DNA of 64,000 nt from Nitrospirota bacterium (lineage in GTDB: Bacteria; Nitrospirota; UBA9217), in assembly GCA_020052615.1 (NCBI GenBank), contig JAGVOT010000017.1, positions 62,001 to 126,000 of the forward strand, in the 5' to 3' direction. The position numbers and the translations under genes were made by a program. The notes below the pieces were generated by a model, which saw only the letters and a program-made list of their open reading frames with translations, did no database searches and was not told where the DNA came from. The number at the start of each line of letters is the position of its first letter. The stretch's first letter is position 1. Below, piece after piece: positions 15,263-48,540 of the stretch.

Positions 15263-16453
15263 CTACGGCCAGTTGCTGGATCCGTGCTTCATTTTGTACA
15301 GGAAGTATTTTTCAAACCCGACCTTCATCCATCTCGCCCATACGGCTTTCTTGGTATAGGAACTCTGTCTCGGCGGGAGGACCGGATAGGCCTTCATCAG
15401 GGCGGCTGTATTCCCCATGTCCATAAGACAGACAACGCCGAGATCATCAGCGACAGGCGGTGTCTTCCCGGTAACGTCCGACGCAATGGTTGCAGCGGCG
15501 ATCTTCGCCATTTTCACGGTCATGAACCCGGTCTTGGGCACGCCCGTCGGCACCGGCGTCGCCTCGGGTGGCGCAATGGCCATCGCCACGCCGATCGCAA
15601 AGATATTCTTATGCTTGGGGTGACGGTAGTTCTTGTCCACCGGGATGAATCCCCGGGGATTCCCGAGCGGCGCAACGGCAGGCACCCCCTTGAACGGCGG
15701 AGCGATCATGGCGAGTTTGAATGGTATCTTATTGCCATCCTTCAGCCGTATCTCTCCGGGAGCAACTTCCTGAATGGCCTGGCTCACCAGCGGCTTGATG
15801 TCCCGCTCGGCGAACTCATGTTCCATGAACGTCTTCGAGGCGCCAAGTCCGCCGACGCCCATATGGCCGAGGTAGGGTTCTGAGGTAAGATACAGAATCG
15901 GAATCTTGTGGCGCATCTTCCGCCGGCGAAGCTCGCTATCTATTTCGAAAGCAAGCTCATAGGACGGGCCGAAGCAGCTCACCATCTGCGAAGAGCCAAG
16001 AACGATGGGACCGGGATTCTCAAGAACGCTCTTCCACGTCGCTCCCGTTTTTACCGCGTGGTCGAGCGTGAAGGTGCAGGCCGTATATCCCTTGTCCGGT
16101 CCGAGGCCGGGGATCTCATCAAAGGCAAGATGCGGTCCGGTTGATATGACGAGAAAGTCATAAGGGAGCTCTTTCCCTTTTGACGTGATGACCTTCGATG
16201 AGTCGGCATCTACCTGTTTCGCGGCCTCATGGACGAAATCAATTCCCTTCGGCTTAAGAATTTCAATTACCTTGAGCGTAATGTCCTCCGGTTTGCGCCA
16301 ACCCATGATGAGCCAGGGAAGCGACGGCAGAAACACGAACCGGTCGTCATCGCTCACCACGGTCACATCCGCTTGCTTGCCGAGCAGCCGCTTAATTTCA
16401 AAGGCCGCCGTCAATCCCCCGAACGATCCTCCTAAAACAACGATCTTTGCCAT
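15263..16453 (-). CDS. Sulfide:quinone oxidoreductase-like flavoprotein
   Basis: A 396-residue FAD protein with GGAGGATAAT before the ATG. The N-terminal FAD site reads VVLGGSFGGLTAA. Three Cys lie where sulfide:quinone reductases have their redox trio: Cys126 (TACTF), Cys160 (SCFGPSYE) and Cys342 (VCLMDMG). The C-terminal FAD/quinone segment FAIGVAMAI and a membrane-associating amphipathic tail (RWMKVGFEKYFLYKMKHG) complete the pattern. The enzyme oxidises sulfide to polysulfide and passes electrons to quinone at the membrane. It is the last gene of the sulfur cluster, and its product would feed persulfide to the DsrE/TusBC proteins. A sulfur-handling relative with another substrate cannot be excluded. 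Confidence 0.85.
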   Translation of the reverse strand: MAKIVVLGGSFGGLTAAFEIKRLLGKQADVTVVSDDDRFVFLPSLPWLIMGWRKPEDITLKVIEILKPKGIDFVHEAAKQVDADSSKVITSKGKELPYDFLVISTGPHLAFDEIPGLGPDKGYTACTFTLDHAVKTGATWKSVLENPGPIVLGSSQMVSCFGPSYELAFEIDSELRRRKMRHKIPILYLTSEPYLGHMGVGGLGASKTFMEHEFAERDIKPLVSQAIQEVAPGEIRLKDGNKIPFKLAMIAPPFKGVPAVAPLGNPRGFIPVDKNYRHPKHKNIFAIGVAMAIAPPEATPVPTGVPKTGFMTVKMAKIAAATIASDVTGKTPPVADDLGVVCLMDMGNTAALMKAYPVLPPRQSSYTKKAVWARWMKVGFEKYFLYKMKHGSSNWP

Positions 16454-16507: not shown

Positions 16508-16789
16508 CTAGAACATCCCTGTCACTTTTTTTCCGCTGGTTATCATGTCTGTCAATTTATCGTAGTCGATGGTTTTTACCCGGTCATCCATCTCGGAATC
16601 CTTGAGACCCCGAAGCCTCTTATCGTCGTCGAGTACATACACTGCGCCCGGCACGGTCCCCAGCCGCTCTTTCTGGGCAAAATAGACGCCGTTCTGCAGA
16701 AGAACAAGATCGGCCCCGCTTTCCTTCGCGAGGGTCAAGCCGAGCGCTCCATCTGTAGTATCGGGTGCGCTTTTTATCATCACCAGCAT
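16508..16789 (-). CDS. TusB/DsrH-like sulfur-relay protein
   Basis: A 93-residue soluble protein beginning MLVMIKSAPDTTDGALGL, with GAGGAGG before the ATG. The size, the VLLQNGVYFAQKE segment and VYVLDDDKRLRGL match the DsrH/TusB family. No Cys is present, so it lacks the Cys seen in some DsrH proteins and may act as a structural subunit of a DsrEFH/TusBCD-like hexamer. It lies 10 bases downstream of the TusC-like gene. A complex with the DsrE and TusC neighbours is inferred from the fixed gene set in other bacteria. Confidence 0.82.
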   Translation of the reverse strand: MLVMIKSAPDTTDGALGLTLAKESGADLVLLQNGVYFAQKERLGTVPGAVYVLDDDKRLRGLKDSEMDDRVKTIDYDKLTDMITSGKKVTGMF

Positions 16790-16799
16790 GGCGTCCTCC

Positions 16800-17153
16800 T
16801 CAGAATATCATTGTCGTTGTCGCTTCTTTCACCAGCCCCGCAATCTCCATGCTGCCGACTATCTTTACGTTTTCAACAAGATCATTCGACGCGACTCGCT
16901 GCGCCTTGAGCGAAGCAACGTCGGCGTAAACCGCTACGCCCATCTCCAGGCAGTCCTTGAGAGTGCCCTCAAGATTAGTGAACCCGGTCCCCGTGTCGTC
17001 CTGTCCTTTTTTTGCAAGCAGCACCCCTCCGTCCACGAGGATCAGATCAACGCTCATCTCGAACGACGCCGCGCCGAGCGCGTGACGGACCGCCTCGGCG
17101 GCATTGATATCACCGTAGGGAGATCTCTTCAAGATCATCGCAACAGCAGCCAT
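16800..17153 (-). CDS. TusC/DsrF-like sulfur-relay protein
   Basis: A 117-residue protein with CAGGAGG before the ATG. Family traits are the start AVAMILKRSPYGDINAAEAVRHALGA, the middle strand VDLILVDGGVLLAKKG, and LEGTLKDCLEMGVAVYAD. The single Cys in LKDCLEM matches the position conserved in several DsrF-like proteins. The C-terminal VGSMEIAGLVKEATTTMIF forms the last strand and helix of the DsrE fold. Located between the Sec-DsrE gene (49 bases upstream) and TusB. Predicted subunit of a heterohexameric sulfur carrier. Confidence 0.83.
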   Translation of the reverse strand: MAAVAMILKRSPYGDINAAEAVRHALGAASFEMSVDLILVDGGVLLAKKGQDDTGTGFTNLEGTLKDCLEMGVAVYADVASLKAQRVASNDLVENVKIVGSMEIAGLVKEATTTMIF

Positions 17154-17201: not shown

Positions 17202-17558
17202 TCACGCCCCGATATTGAGCCAGACATCGGTCTCGCCCATGGTTGCGAACAATCCTTTAAGGGAGCCGACTTCCGTATTTGCAAGATAATCGTCTTTCGC
17301 TGCACGGCGAAAGTTGAGGCAACCGCCTCAGAGATATACCTTCAGCCCTTTTTGTATCAGCCGGGCGAACTCCTCTTCAGCGTTCAGGATGCCTTTCGCC
17401 TTCTGTTTGGTCAGAAAGCAGTAGACGCCGTCTGCTGATGCGATCAGGTTGACGGTGTGGCCTTTGCTCAGGGCTGATTCAGCGATGCGGGAACTCGTCA
17501 GCGTGTTCTCGTACGAATACGGCGATGTGGACAGATACAGTGTAACGGTTTTCGGCAT
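17202..17558 (-). CDS. Selenocysteine-containing DsrE/TusD-like protein (in-frame UGA at codon 77)
   Basis: The frame opens at ATG 17558 (MPKTVTLYLSTSPYSYENTL, GGAGGAGG upstream) and meets TGA at 17330-17328. It continues in the same frame for 41 codons to a second TGA at 17204-17202, giving 118 residues. Upstream of the UGA are QKGLKVYL; downstream are GGCLNFRRAAKDDY and then EVGSLKGLFATMGETDVWL, all standard for the DsrE fold. Homologues have Cys-Gly-x-Cys exactly here, so the residue order is Sec-Gly-Gly-Cys. A SECIS-like hairpin follows. Without recoding the protein would lose its last strand, helix and active site. It sits between a cytochrome and tusC in the sulfur cluster. A plain nonsense mutation is the alternative. 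Confidence 0.85.
17294..17330 (-). promoter_or_regulatory. SECIS-like element of the DsrE-like gene
   Basis: After the UGA (17330-17328) come 14 bases and a perfect 7-base stem, CTTTCGC with GCGAAAG, enclosing loop CGTGCA that starts 21 bases after the UGA and contains GU. The UGA itself also begins a perfect 6-base hairpin (TGAGGC, GGTT, GCCTCA). Bacterial SelB recognises a hairpin at this distance inside the coding sequence. Confidence 0.72.
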
Positions 17559-17583: not shown

Positions 17584-18735
17584 TCATTGCTGCGGGCCAA
17601 GGGGAATTTGTTCATGATATATCGGATAGGCGATCGGCTCGACATTGTCGTAGCCTATCTTCTTCCGCCGTGCTTCATCAAGAAGATGGTATCGCACGGT
17701 CACATCTATGGCGGCAGGTGCGCCGGGACCGCGCTTGTTCAAGGGGACCTTGAACTCTCTCGGCTGCAAGTACGGCAACCGCGTGTCCCGGAGATCAATG
17801 ATGAACGGTCTCCAGAGGATGTACCTTTTCATCGCATACACCTTTTCCTTCAACACCTCCCCGTCCGGCCCCAGGAGTTTCAACTCGAGGGTCAGATGCC
17901 GGTCCGGGGTGCCGGTCGGCAGATAGTGGGCCGCCCCCACATTCGTCAGCGTGATGACTAGCCCGTTATCCTCCAATCGATGGTCGACCCGCAGCGATTC
18001 CTTCACGCGCCCCGGCTCATGGCCGCCATGGAACAGATGCCGTCCCCCTTGCCGCACCGGCGTCCCGTCGGCTGCCGGCCGCATGACTGGCGGCATATGG
18101 CAGGATACGCAGTCTATCGTCTGTTTACCTTTTTCTATCTCCGCGACGGTGCCGCAGGGCGGGATCGTGTAGAACGTGTCCCATCGTTTTCCCGCTACTA
18201 CATGGCAACGCAGACAGGGTTTGATCCCTTTCGCCATTCCGGGATCATACTCCACCGGATGGGGGGCCCTGTTTGTCAGGAAGGGACCGACGATCCTGCC
18301 GTTCCGAATATGGCAGACCGCGCAGGTCACGCCTTCATCCCGGAGCGCGGCATCGAACGCCGGATTCGGCGCAAGGATGGGGTCGAATTTATCGCGGTCC
18401 CTGAATCCCAGCACGAGGTCCTGCTGCTGGTTCACCAGCGGCGTATGGCAATTGAGGCAGATCTGCAGGGAGCCGTCGTATTTGAAATCGACCTGGAAGT
18501 ACGGGTCGGTCCACGCCCGTGCGTGCATGCTGCCGGCCCACTCGCTGTAGATCTCCCGATGGCACGTCCCGCAGTCCTTTGCGCTGAGCGACGCGAGGCC
18601 GCGAGGCGTCTCGACCTGCATCGGTCTTTCAAACCGCTCGTCGATAACAAAGATGTTCAGGGGCCGCAAGAGCCGCCAGAGCAGGAACAGGACGATCAGC
18701 GCCGAAATGATCAACCATGCCGTTTTTTTTGCCAT
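17584..18735 (-). CDS. Membrane-anchored five-haem cytochrome c
   Basis: A 383-residue protein with an N-terminal anchor helix (WLIISALIVLFLLWRLL, residues 7-23) placing the rest in the periplasm. Five CxxCH haem sites are at about Cys55, 93, 138, 174 and 209 (CGTCH, CLNCH, CAVCH, CLRCH, CVSCH). Residues ~240-383 form a haem-free beta domain with VTNVGAAHYLPTGTPDR and LDEARRKKIGYD, as in cytochrome c554-type and other multihaem electron-transfer proteins. It lies between TauE and the DsrE-like gene, so it may exchange electrons with sulfur oxyanions or with the SQR-like flavoprotein. The exact enzyme, if any, is not identifiable. Confidence 0.88.
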   Translation of the reverse strand: MAKKTAWLIISALIVLFLLWRLLRPLNIFVIDERFERPMQVETPRGLASLSAKDCGTCHREIYSEWAGSMHARAWTDPYFQVDFKYDGSLQICLNCHTPLVNQQQDLVLGFRDRDKFDPILAPNPAFDAALRDEGVTCAVCHIRNGRIVGPFLTNRAPHPVEYDPGMAKGIKPCLRCHVVAGKRWDTFYTIPPCGTVAEIEKGKQTIDCVSCHMPPVMRPAADGTPVRQGGRHLFHGGHEPGRVKESLRVDHRLEDNGLVITLTNVGAAHYLPTGTPDRHLTLELKLLGPDGEVLKEKVYAMKRYILWRPFIIDLRDTRLPYLQPREFKVPLNKRGPGAPAAIDVTVRYHLLDEARRKKIGYDNVEPIAYPIYHEQIPLGPQQ

Positions 18736-18791: not shown

Positions 18792-19580
18792 TTATCGGCC
18801 GGTCAGTATCTGATACCACATCCTGATGCCCGTGATCGCAATGATGACCGCTATGCCGATCCGAAGGTATTTCGTGTTCACCTTCTTGCTCATCATTCCG
18901 CCGAACTGCGCGCCGGGGACCGTGCCAGCGACGAGCGCGATCGCGGCCGGCCAAATGATCTGGCCGGTGGCCGTCTTTCCGATCGTGCCGGTGACCGCTC
19001 CAAGGAAGACGATCCCGAGGGTGCTGCCGATGACGATGCGCGTCGGGATGTTCAGGAGGTAGATCATCACGGGGATATAGATGAACGCGCCCGGCGCTCC
19101 CACCATGCCCCCAAACATTCCGATGACGATACTGACGGCCGCGGCGAGAGGCTTGTTGTACATGAGATCATCGGGCGCGATGTCCCGGCCCCGTTCGCGC
19201 TTCGGGATAAACATCGCCACCGCGGCGATAACCGCAAGCGTGGCAAAAATGGCGAGCAGCAGGGAACTTTTTGTGTACTGCGAGTAAAAGGAGCCTGCGA
19301 GATTACCGAGGGCGTTGCACAGACCCATGGTGAGAAGAAGGGATCTGCTCACGAACCTGTTCTTGTGATGGACGATGACGCCCGTGAGAGACGCAGACAG
19401 TACCTGGACCATGCTGACCGCGGCCACCTGCTTCATGTCGAACTGCCCCACGCCGAGCAGCGGCGGGACGTAGAGAAGCAGCGGTATCATGAAGATGGCG
19501 CCGCCAAGGCCCAGAAGACCCGAAAGGAATCCGCCGCCGAGGCCCAGCACAACGAGCGTTCCCAGGAGTGCTAGATCCAT
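18792..19580 (-). CDS. TauE/SafE family sulfur-compound permease
   Basis: A 262-residue membrane protein with about eight helices. It starts at 19580 directly after the stop of the Sec-thioredoxin gene (TGACATG), with GAAGGGGG as ribosome site. Signatures include GFLSGLLGLGGAIFMIPLLL near the N-terminus and the repeated half-motif GMFGGMVGAPGAFIYIPVMI after the centre, as in the DUF81/TauE/SafE family. The family carries sulfite, sulfoacetate or other sulfur anions; here the neighbours (thioredoxin fold, DsrE, SQR) support a sulfur substrate. Direction of transport is unknown. Confidence 0.9.
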   Translation of the reverse strand: MDLALLGTLVVLGLGGGFLSGLLGLGGAIFMIPLLLYVPPLLGVGQFDMKQVAAVSMVQVLSASLTGVIVHHKNRFVSRSLLLTMGLCNALGNLAGSFYSQYTKSSLLLAIFATLAVIAAVAMFIPKRERGRDIAPDDLMYNKPLAAAVSIVIGMFGGMVGAPGAFIYIPVMIYLLNIPTRIVIGSTLGIVFLGAVTGTIGKTATGQIIWPAAIALVAGTVPGAQFGGMMSKKVNTKYLRIGIAVIIAITGIRMWYQILTGR

Positions 19581-19581
19581 G

Positions 19582-19851
19582 TCATGCCCCCTTCAGAGTG
19601 CCTTCGTTCAGTATTGCAGCCTTAAGCGCTTCATAAGTGACGATATCGTTTTTTACAATGAGCTTGCTGTTCACCAGGACGGAGGGACAAGGCAGCGGGT
19701 CATGTTCTTCGGCGTACCGAGGCGAGGTCTTCTTGATCACGACGATCTGCGCGCCGAACTCTTTCTCCGCCCGACCGGCGGCTTCCCTGTTCAGTGCTCA
19801 GCGTTTCCCCAGGGGATCGTTGACATACAACGTTATGACGTGTTTGTTCAT
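19582..19851 (-). CDS. Selenocysteine-containing thioredoxin-fold mini-protein (in-frame UGA at codon 18)
   Basis: The ATG at 19851 immediately follows the ArsR stop (TAAATG) with GAGGAG eight bases upstream. The frame reads MNKHVITLYVNDPLGKR, then TGA (19800-19798), and continues for 71 codons to a TGA at 19584. After the UGA come ALNREAAGRAEKEFGAQ, a beta strand IVVIKK and LPCPSVLVNSKLIV, where Cys55-Pro56 is the cis-Pro loop of thioredoxin folds. Related mini-thioredoxins have CxxC where this has Gly-Lys-Arg-Sec, so only the second redox residue remains, as Sec18. A hairpin with loop GGTCG follows. The gene is missed by ordinary ORF calling. Perfect spacing to both neighbours argues against a pseudogene. 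Confidence 0.83.
19767..19800 (-). promoter_or_regulatory. SECIS-like element of the thioredoxin-fold gene
   Basis: Sixteen bases after the UGA (19800-19798) a perfect 5-base stem CCGCC/GGCGG encloses loop GGTCG. The loop starts 21 bases after the UGA and resembles the GGUCU loop of the E. coli fdhF SECIS. Confidence 0.72.
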
Positions 19852-20193
19852 TTACCGTCTCCTCTCGCCGGGATAGGTGCCCCGCTTTGTCACCGGACAG
19901 CATGCCGGCGCGGGAATGTCCTCTTCATATTCTTTTTTCAACAGCTCCAGCAGGTCAGGAATGAGCGGCTCCTTGAGAAAATAGCACTTGAGGCGGCCAT
20001 CGACGAAAAAATCGATGATGCTGTGCGAGCGCAGCAGTTTGAGATGCTGCGACACGTTCGGCTGGCTGATGTCGAGGGACTCCTCGAAATCGCTCACGCA
20101 CTTGACCCCCTGCACGAGTTCTTCCAGGATCCTGATCCGGGCGGGATGAGCGATCACTTTTAAGAGCTCTAACCTTGCGTTCGTCGCGATCAT
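19852..20193 (-). CDS. ArsR-family transcriptional regulator
   Basis: A 113-residue winged-helix repressor. The start at 20193 (MIATNARLELLKVIAHPARI) is chosen for the AGGAGG upstream; a longer frame from 20223 lacks one. The recognition helix region is SLDISQPNVSQHLKLLRSHS. Cys residues are at 32 (GVKCVSD), 70 (LKCYFL) and 98-99 (PACCPV). Metal-sensing ArsR proteins use Cys at about 32-34, whereas sulfide/persulfide sensors such as SqrR use a distant Cys pair, so a thiol-based sensor is plausible. It is the first gene of the sulfur/selenium cluster and overlaps its promoter region, implying autoregulation. Confidence 0.88.
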   Translation of the reverse strand: MIATNARLELLKVIAHPARIRILEELVQGVKCVSDFEESLDISQPNVSQHLKLLRSHSIIDFFVDGRLKCYFLKEPLIPDLLELLKKEYEEDIPAPACCPVTKRGTYPGERRR

Positions 20194-24950: not shown

Positions 24951-26597
24951 TCACCGGCTGATGCTGATCCTGTCGCCTTCGTTGATCCCCGACCCCGCAG
25001 CCGTCTCTATCACCCAGCGGACCGGCGACCCGGAAGGATACACATCGGCCCGCGAAGGCCGGCAGTCCCGATAGATCCGTGACACAATACCGTCGGACGC
25101 GACATACATGATATCAAGGGGATAGGGCACGCTTCCCATCCAGAAGGTTACCGTCTGAGGGTCCTCATAGGAAAAGAGCGCAGCTTCATCGGCTTCCAGC
25201 TTCCGGAACCCCTGCAGGCCCTGGCGTTGTTTCTCATAACTGTCGCAGAGCAGCACGACCCGATAGACGCGCGCACCACGGCGCGGATCGGCGGAAGTGA
25301 CCGTAATGGTCATTGGCTTCACCGATCGCGCCACCGGAGCCGGTTCAGCCCCCCGGGCGATCTTCACGTTGACGACCAGCACCAGTATCCCGGCGGCGAT
25401 CGTGATGATCGTGATGAGGGCGCCCACGCGAAAATACTCCAGGAACCCGATCTCGACCTGTTTCCTCGCCTGCTGCACGACGATCAGGTTCGCTACGGAG
25501 CCGATGAGCGTGAAGTTGCCGGCGAGGGTGCTGCTCATGGCAAGCGCGAGCCACGCTATCCGGTCGCCGCCCAGTGATTCGACAAAGGGCTTCAGCAGCA
25601 TGACCGCCGGAACATTGCTGACCACATTGGAAAGAACGGCCGAGACGACCGACAGTCCCGCGATCCTGCCCGCGGGAGACAAAGCGGACAGATCGCCTGC
25701 CTTCCCGATCACGGCCCCGGCAAGTCCCGACACCTCGACGCCGTGCATGACGATAAAAAGCCCCGAAAAGAACAGGAGGAGCGTCCAGTCGACCCCCTCA
25801 AGGACCCGCTCCGTGCGCACTCCGCCGACAAGCATCAGGAGCACAGCACCGGCTATCGCGGTCAGGGAGTACGGATGCCCCAGCGAAAAGGCCGCCAAAA
25901 CGCCGGCGCAGACCGTCAGGGACTTTATCAGCAGCGGCTTGTTCATCTCATAGTGCGGCATCGCAAGTCTTCCGCCGAAGGGCACATCCACGATGTCCCT
26001 CCGATAGGCGAAGCGGATGACCAAGACGCTGACGGCCAGCCCGATGATCGTCACCGGGAACAACGCTCCGAGGAACGACAAATAGGGTATCTGGGAGTAG
26101 ATGCCGATGAGCATGTTCTGGGGATTGCCGGTGACCGTCATGGCGCCGCCGATGTTCGAAGCCGTCGCAAGCGCCAGAAGATAGGGCAGGGGATTCACCG
26201 CAAGCTGGGCCGTCATCGCCAGGATGATGGGAGTATAGAGCAGGCAGATGGTATCGTTCACGAACAGCGCCGAAAGGATGCCCGACGAGACCGTGACGAA
26301 GACCAGCAGCTGGAACGGCGTTTTCGACAGCGACAGGATGCGGTCTGCCATAAGCTCGAAGAACCCTGCGATACGGAGGTAGACCGTTATGATCATCATC
26401 CCGAGGAGCAGCAGGAGGGTGTGCAGGTCGATGGCGGCGAAGGCCTGGTCGAGGGTGAGCACCCCCGTGACGATCATGAGCACGCCGCCCACCAGCGCGC
26501 CGGCGGGCCGGTCGATGTGGATGCGCGGGATCTGACGGAGGCCGATGAAGAGATAGGTGATGAGGAAGATACCAAGCGCGGTGATCATGAGCGGCAC
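24951..26597 (-). CDS. SLC13/ArsB-like ion transporter fused to a C-terminal DUF192 domain
   Basis: A 548-residue protein starting at GTG 26597 or ATG 26588; no strong ribosome site distinguishes them. Residues 1-~415 have about eleven helices of the CitMHS/ArsB/NhaD superfamily, including NDTICLLYTPIIL, TASNIGGAMTVTGNPQN and a second half-motif SVANLIVVQQARK. Residues ~425-548 form a DUF192 domain (VLLCDSYEKQRQGLQG, SYEDPQTVTFWMGSVPYPLDIMYV), normally a stand-alone small exported protein. A fusion of the two is unusual. The transporter probably moves an anion or arsenite-like species, and the DUF192 part should lie in the periplasm. Confidence 0.85.
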   Translation of the reverse strand: MPLMITALGIFLITYLFIGLRQIPRIHIDRPAGALVGGVLMIVTGVLTLDQAFAAIDLHTLLLLLGMMIITVYLRIAGFFELMADRILSLSKTPFQLLVFVTVSSGILSALFVNDTICLLYTPIILAMTAQLAVNPLPYLLALATASNIGGAMTVTGNPQNMLIGIYSQIPYLSFLGALFPVTIIGLAVSVLVIRFAYRRDIVDVPFGGRLAMPHYEMNKPLLIKSLTVCAGVLAAFSLGHPYSLTAIAGAVLLMLVGGVRTERVLEGVDWTLLLFFSGLFIVMHGVEVSGLAGAVIGKAGDLSALSPAGRIAGLSVVSAVLSNVVSNVPAVMLLKPFVESLGGDRIAWLALAMSSTLAGNFTLIGSVANLIVVQQARKQVEIGFLEYFRVGALITIITIAAGILVLVVNVKIARGAEPAPVARSVKPMTITVTSADPRRGARVYRVVLLCDSYEKQRQGLQGFRKLEADEAALFSYEDPQTVTFWMGSVPYPLDIMYVASDGIVSRIYRDCRPSRADVYPSGSPVRWVIETAAGSGINEGDRISISR

Positions 26598-47127: not shown

Positions 47128-48540
47128 ATGTTGCGAAAATGCATCAGCACCTTTTCATTCGCAGCGGCACTGATGATCGGATCATTCGCCGGTCAGGCCG
47201 CGGCGCAGGAAAAGGCCGCAGCGCCGGCACAGCCGCCGACCAAGCCCTCAGTGGCCAAGGTCTGCGGGAACTGCCACCAGCCCCAACCCGGTAATCTCCG
47301 GGGAAATTTCGACAGCGTAGCGTACAAGACCAAATCGATCCAGGTCAAGATCGATGAGGCAACGGAGATACTGCGGTTCGACGACAATCTCAAGATCATG
47401 AACGTCCAGGCCCCGGCCGACAACCCGGACCAGCCGCTCTACGGCCTCAAGAAGGGCAAAGAGGTCCGCATCGAGTTCACGGAGAAGGACGGCAAGAAGT
47501 TCGCCACCCTTATATCGGCCAAGACGACCATCAAGGTCGCGCCCGAGAAGCAGGTCAAGACCGAGGACGTGGAGAAGCTCGTTGCCCAGGGACCGAAGAA
47601 GGGCAAGTATATGCTCATCGACGCCCGGCCGCTCCCCCGATTCCAGGAGGGATCCATCCCCACGGCCATCAACATCCCCTTCCCTGCTTTCGAAAAGATG
47701 AAGGACAAGCTTCCGGCCGATAAGGCATCGCTGATCGTCTACTACTGCGCAGGTGTTACCTGAGCGATGAGCCCTGACTCCGCCCGGCGGGCGGAAAAGC
47801 TTGGATACACCAATGTGAAGGTTTACGTGGACGGCACACCGGAGTGGGTGAAGCGCAACCACCTCGTGCTGTCAACGCAGTTCCTGAAGGAAGCATGGAT
47901 CGACAAGGATATCCCGCATGTGCTGGTGGATGTGCGGCCGGCAGCAGAATCTGAAAAGGGATTCATCAAGGGCGCTGTCACGGTCCCCGCTGCAGGGATC
48001 GAGAAGGCGATCGCCAGGTTCCCGCCCAAGGACAAGAAAGCGCCGATCATGATCTACGACCAGAAGGGCGGTGCTGACGCGGTGAAGGCTGCAAAAGCGC
48101 TCATTGCCGCAGGCTACGCTCCCGTGGACATCGTCTCCGGCGGTTTCGATGCGTGGAAGGCAGCGGGCTTCCCGGTCCAGACAGGCATGCTCGCAGAGAA
48201 CATCGTGTACGTGCCCAAGCCGCGGCCCGGTGAGATTGCCATCGAGGAGTTCGCCAAGATCGCCAAGGCAACGCCGCCGGACACGCTGATCCTCGATGTG
48301 CGGAACCGCGACGAAGGCAACGCCGGCATGATCAAAGGCGCGAAGCTGGTGCCCGACGAAGAGATCCTGGACCGGTTCGCCGAGATCCCGAAGGACAAGA
48401 AGATCGTGGCCCACTGCTCAACGGGAGTCCGCGCCGAGATGGCCTACCACAAGCTGAAGGAGAAGGGCTACACCGTCCAGTTCCTGAACGCCAAGGTGGA
48501 CATCAACGACAAGGGCGAGTTCAAGCTCGAAAAGCCGTAA
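47128..48540 (+). CDS. Selenocysteine-containing secreted triple-rhodanese protein (in-frame UGA at codon 212)
   Basis: From ATG 47128 (AAGGAGG upstream) the frame runs 211 codons to TGA 47761-47763, then continues in frame to 48540: 470 residues if UGA is read as Sec. Signal peptide to ~28; a c-haem-like motif CGNCH at 46-50; a small beta domain to ~140. Then come three rhodanese domains. Domain 1 has LIVYYCAGVT-Sec-AMSPDSARRAEKLGY: Cys207 and Sec212 match a C-x4-C pattern in homologues. Domain 2 (about 240-340) has YDQKGGADAV and no Cys. Domain 3 has active Cys430 in AHCSTGVRAE. The stop falls inside domain 1, so a truncated product would be non-functional. A terminator follows at 48565. 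Confidence 0.83.
47761..47795 (+). promoter_or_regulatory. SECIS-like element of the rhodanese gene
   Basis: After the UGA and 15 bases, TCCGCCC (47779-47785) pairs perfectly with GGGCGGA (47789-47795). With the last pair open the loop CGGCG begins 21 bases after the UGA, as in the two other genes. Confidence 0.7.

Follow-up and report, generated by a model that had tools for sequence, protein, structure and literature searches.

The window, the whole stretch of 64,000 nucleotides from a Nitrospirota bacterium that was analysed, carries on its minus strand a short gene, here given the working name tsoC2, within a set of genes of sulfur-transfer type (Table 1). The original prediction had placed an 89-codon gene between those for an ArsR regulator and a TauE permease without giving its strand; gene and neighbours are borne out, on the minus strand, where translation from 19851 to 19582 gives MNKHVITLYVNDPLGKR-U-ALNREAAGRAEKEFGAQIVVIKKTSPRYAEEHDPLPCPSVLVNSKLIVKNDIVTYEALKAAILNEGTLKGA followed by a stop. 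The exact fit described for this interval also holds: the ArsR stop codon abuts the tsoC2 start (TAA-ATG, gap of 0), and one base separates the tsoC2 stop from the TauE start (TGA-C-ATG, gap of 1). A GAGGAG motif is present 7 bases 5' of the tsoC2 ATG, and Gly15, the motif PCPSVLVN at residues 54–61 and Cys55 within it lie where they had been assigned. The plus-strand reading of 19582–19851 is an overlapping open reading frame without family evidence and is unsupported. A Pfam search with the TsoC2 protein matched no family.

Table 1. The tsoC2 gene, its sequence elements and the neighbouring genes in the window
Feature	Position	Strand	Remark
ArsR/SmtB-family regulator	19852..20193	minus	Cys32, Cys70, C-terminal CCP; matches TsoR (NF045707) weakly
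tsoC2, predicted 89-codon thioredoxin-fold selenoprotein gene	19582..19851	minus	stop TGA 19582-19584
UGA codon 18, read as selenocysteine	19798..19800	minus	Cys instead in homologues of family f4
SECIS hairpin, 5 bp stem CCGCC/GGCGG, loop GGUCG	19767..19781	minus	covaries in homologues
Invariant Cys55 codon, just 5' of predicted cis-Pro (Pro56)	19687..19689	minus	alignment
TauE/SafE family permease	18792..19580	minus	
Multihaem c-type cytochrome	17584..18735	minus	
DsrE-like sulfur carrier, second predicted operon selenoprotein, Sec at residue 77	17202..17558	minus	UGA conserved
UGA of DsrE-like gene (KGLKVYL-U-GGC)	17328..17330	minus	
TusC/DsrF-like protein	16800..17153	minus	
TusB/DsrH-like protein	16508..16789	minus	
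SQR-like pyridine nucleotide-disulfide oxidoreductase	15263..16453	minus	

Homologous loci share the gene order ArsR–TsoC2–TauE–[rhodanese]–DsrE–TusC–TusB–SQR-like–DsrE2-like–MMPL/RND–LolA-like, parts of which are absent in some genomes, and this sulfur operon synteny holds across several Nitrospirota families. The multihaem cytochrome of the window occupies the place that a rhodanese takes in other loci. Among the ArsR homologues Cys32 and Cys70 are kept, and the C-terminal CCP is found in nearly all. Three tsoC2 members (L053, L086 and L087) lie outside the operon, so TsoC2 may also act without DsrE or Tus proteins. In two Nitrospirota, L095 (7225–8193) and L096, selD and another TauE gene come after the tsoC2–tauE pair, which may point to a connection with selenium supply.

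Homologues of TsoC2 were drawn from relatives, phylum genomes and GTDB contigs. A single-sequence scan of the genome contigs returned no relatives; an alignment-based search then recovered them, and a profile search of the phylum gave matches in 47 of 396 genomes, a count that includes TsoC. Column 18 is occupied by UGA in 24 of 31 distinct homologues, these 24 being intact, and by Cys in the other seven, the Cys-bearing homologues for which the original prediction had suggested a search. UGA is the sole stop codon seen at this position. The UGA forms come from Nitrospirota families f1, f11, f21, f26 and f37 and from one Desulfobacterales genome, while all seven Cys forms belong to one other Nitrospirota family, f4; three of these (L050, L051 and L097) share the ArsR/TauE setting. 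On the 3' side of the UGA, pN/pS was 0.05–0.58 in the pairs inspected, with a median of 0.41 over all Sec pairs that is inflated by saturated synonymous sites; the region appears to be under purifying selection. An unconserved stop and a random pattern beyond it had been named in advance as telling against a selenoprotein; what was found is a conserved UGA/Cys column followed by sequence with pN/pS below 1. One genome (G008:C86, loci L035/L088) holds a second TsoC2 copy whose frame is lost after residue 60, through decay or assembly error; the genome also has an intact copy at another place.

The core of the hairpin, 5 bp long, begins 17 bases past the end of the UGA codon; with the UGA numbered 1–3, columns 20–24 pair with columns 30–34. 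Pairing is observed in 99.2% of cells of the Sec-form alignment, against 18–55% in slid controls, and the covariation score was reached by 0 of 500 shuffles. The compensatory changes sit at two wobble positions in the Sec forms: pair 21–33 joins the third positions of two codons and is C-G, U-A, A-U or U-G in 23 of 24 rows. In a separate shuffle test of this pair, 0 of 100,000 shuffles were as good, a figure that is not a strict probability since the rows are related. The hairpin of the window itself folds with z = -2.57 (2 of 200 shuffles as good). Among the Cys forms, pairs 20–34 and 21–33 are each kept in 4 of 7 and pair 24–30 in 2 of 7, the hairpin being decayed in these forms. A longer stem with base pairs 18–36 and 19–35 was dropped, as those pairs are unconserved. 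The loop, GGUCG at 19776–19772, is present as originally described, but its likeness to the fdhF loop does not lie in the conserved part, only the G at the second position being nearly invariant across the family.

The source genome also encodes the machinery for selenocysteine. Profile matches over the cut-offs were obtained for selA (613 bits), selB (384 bits) and selD (362 bits), along with two tRNA-Sec genes, both called by ARAGORN too. The two tRNA-Sec genes differ from each other (G000:C50:31653-31747, 64 bits, and G000:C130:47997-48087, 53 bits), and the second is located some 1.1 kb past rhodanese genes that include one with an internal UGA. The selD gene (G000:C59:21410-22333, L055) itself contains one UGA and is a selenoprotein candidate; a canonical TsoC (26256-26495) lies 4 kb downstream on the same contig. 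The alignment of UGA with Cys at a single column, the covarying hairpin, the constraint beyond the UGA and the presence of this machinery strongly support, at the level of sequence, a reading of tsoC2 as a selenoprotein gene. SelB and tRNA-Sec almost certainly decode UGA-18, aided by the hairpin.

Structure prediction of the read-through protein, a check proposed in advance, returned a thioredoxin fold (pLDDT 86.4, pTM 0.76), and a Foldseek search against the PDB placed thioredoxins as the top matches, the mini-thioredoxin MTH895 among them. The model suggests a minimal thioredoxin fold (beta-alpha-beta, beta-beta-alpha) with a cis-Pro loop and Sec at the position of the second Cys; its helix starts at residue 16, which places residue 18 in the first helical turn. 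The MTH895/ArsE mini-thioredoxins (TIGR00412; PDB 1ilo) share this fold, with a structural match of TM 0.58/0.65. In a sequence search of the PDB, MTH895 was the sole sensible match, although an insignificant one (E 0.97), and the sequence match of L026 to the MTH895/ArsE family is insignificant too (0.025). In that weak alignment the UGA stands, as had been proposed, at the second Cys of the CxxC motif, with Gly at the first; TsoC2 thus differs from MTH895/ArsE in having Gly for the first Cys, Sec for the second and an added Cys before cis-Pro. The active site reads GKRU, without the CxxC of classical thioredoxins. The added residue, Cys55, is invariant in the TsoC2 members aligned. We know of no described protein with a redox pair of the Sec18–Cys55 type across the cleft between active site and cis-Pro loop.

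A small thioredoxin-like selenoprotein with a GxxU site is already held in NCBIfam: TsoC (NF045708), the NEPxGxxU motif selenoprotein, which has the same length as TsoC2. The original prediction had considered a Sec-only site to be mechanistically unusual, with Cys55 as the nearest candidate to resolve it; the Cys beside cis-Pro stands, being invariant, while the site itself has a precedent in TsoC. TsoC2 of the window matches NF045708 over nearly its full length at 35.6 bits (6.6e-9), under the curated cut-off of 45 bits, and the other members scanned score 30–41 bits, all likewise below it. A true TsoC is encoded separately in the source genome (G000:C59:26256, 71.8 bits by NF045708). The motif, NEPxGxxU in TsoC, is N-D/E-P-x-G-K-R-U in the TsoC2 clade—NDPLGKRU in the window and NEPMGKRU in some members—and the Cys before cis-Pro that is invariant in TsoC2 is missing from the TsoC rows. 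TsoC2 and TsoC split at 99/97 in a tree whose details are unsure, given one very long TsoC branch and unsettled bootstrap. By its scores and the tree, TsoC2 is a sister clade to TsoC, a selenoprotein already known, and falls below the cut-off of that family.

The review PMC13188914, citing Haft and Tolstoy 2025, describes Tso, short for three selenoprotein operon. In Desulfobacterales GWB2_56_26 (L046/G396) the gene order is tsoA–tsoB–tsoC–tsoC2, with TsoA at 215 bits and TsoB at 1002 bits, both over the cut-off, and this order ties TsoC2 to the Tso system. Other matches in the class of this genome, at 28–37 bits against 127, were at TsoC level or weaker and were not taken as further TsoC2. 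It is only at this locus that tsoA and tsoB adjoin tsoC2: many matches in the TsoB profile search were partial, covering separate domains, and the sole TsoB was that of G396, while the genome of the window gave no TsoA and no full TsoB by profile search. Two Nitrospirota (L049 and L093) carry tsoC2 and tsoC within one operon. TsoC2 is a new clade beside a recently named family and not a new kind of system, and the description of Tso by Haft and Tolstoy (2025) may already mention it.

The DsrE-like gene of the tsoC2 operon appears to encode a selenoprotein as well, one absent from the original prediction. With read-through of its UGA, the Pfam DsrE match climbs from 34.5 bits (profile positions 3–76) to 56.4 bits (3–111) and spans almost the whole domain, and the UGA is kept in 14 of 14 loci with this DsrE, most of them with a predicted hairpin at equal distance. 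The Sec presumably stands at the catalytic Cys of TusD/DsrE. No solved-structure match was found for this protein. An UxxC DsrE-like selenoprotein has already been catalogued (PMC13188914); TsoC2, unlike it, is not a DsrE. With the TusC-like and TusB-like genes, the Sec-DsrE gene gives tsoC2 adjoining counterparts of the DsrEFH/TusBCD sulfur-relay complexes. At four loci beside tsoC2 (L048, L054, L090 and L094) the rhodanese has a UGA in its presumed active-site loop (VVI-U-MFDKRS). Counting the UGAs of tsoC2 and DsrE, the operon holds two predicted selenoproteins in the window and, with this rhodanese, three in other genomes. These four rhodaneses carry an N-terminal signal-like stretch, and the L048 copy falls under all NCBIfam cut-offs. 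Elsewhere in the window, on the plus strand, a triple-rhodanese protein (47128-48540) has an in-frame UGA (47761-47763; YYCAGVTUAMS) with a hairpin downstream, and is a probable third selenoprotein. The literature examined yielded no description of both operon selenoproteins together with ArsR, TauE and an SQR-like protein, and the operon of the TsoC2 clade with Sec-DsrE (ArsR–TsoC2–TauE–[Sec-rhodanese]–DsrE–TusC–TusB–SQR-like) appears new to us.

On balance, the operon probably serves a selenium-assisted relay or detoxification of cytoplasmic sulfane sulfur, a function suggested by its gene content, in which TsoC2 would most likely act as a selenol redox partner. Sec18, lying in the first turn of the helix, should face the cis-Pro loop that bears Cys55. 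Acting as nucleophile, its selenol would attack the persulfide or disulfide of a partner protein, and Cys55 could then resolve the resulting Se–S bond or selenopersulfide across the cis-Pro cleft. Judging from gene neighbourhood only, the likely partners are the Sec-containing DsrE, the TusC/TusB-like proteins and, where present, the Sec-rhodanese; sulfane sulfur carried on these proteins would be the substrate, and the SQR-like flavoprotein its source or sink. ArsR, through its conserved Cys residues, would sense sulfur species that are reactive (or metalloids). The permease TauE, whose family has diverse substrates, would export a sulfur anion. More tentatively, and with rather less likelihood, a selenium-based relay may run through Nitrospirota, in which TsoC2, DsrE and sometimes rhodanese and TsoC each place Sec at a putative sulfur-handling residue, selenopersulfides carry the sulfur and Sec18 and Cys55 form a redox pair.

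As the main alternative, the same genes could serve metalloid or selenium homeostasis, with ArsR sensing As(III) or a similar soft species, Sec18 and Cys55 reducing or binding the metalloid and TauE exporting the product. The cysteines of the neighbouring ArsR and its weak TsoR match fit such a role, as does the weak match of TsoC-clade proteins to the MTH895/ArsE thioredoxin family; for selenium, selD follows tsoC2–tauE in L095/L096 and lies 4 kb from canonical TsoC in the source genome. Nevertheless, no arsenic gene was recognised adjoining tsoC2 in the window, and the most widely conserved partners—DsrE/TusC/TusB, the SQR-like protein and rhodanese—belong to families of sulfur-transfer type, so that operon content favours sulfur handling and this alternative is unlikely. 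A general thiol peroxidase or protein disulfide reductase, without special ties to sulfur transfer, would suit a thioredoxin fold with a single selenol and the few members that stand alone, but is quite improbable given that tsoC2 keeps its sulfur-gene neighbours across several families and has a GxxU site lacking the CxxC of general reductases. That UGA-18 is a true stop, a sequencing error or another residue, with a decaying frame downstream, is scarcely credible given the UGA/Cys column, the covarying hairpin, the constraint and the Sec machinery, and a second UGA 72 codons downstream serves tsoC2 as its ordinary stop.

With TsoC2, the selenoprotein catalogue gains a well-supported clade. 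The curated model now in use does not catch it, so these genes would probably be broken up or passed over at the UGA in automatic annotation. The interest of TsoC2 lies in its invariant extra Cys and in its multi-selenoprotein sulfur operon. Across Nitrospirota, one operon keeps together at least two selenoproteins of sulfur-transfer type, and the question of why sulfur trafficking would need selenium thereby becomes directly testable.
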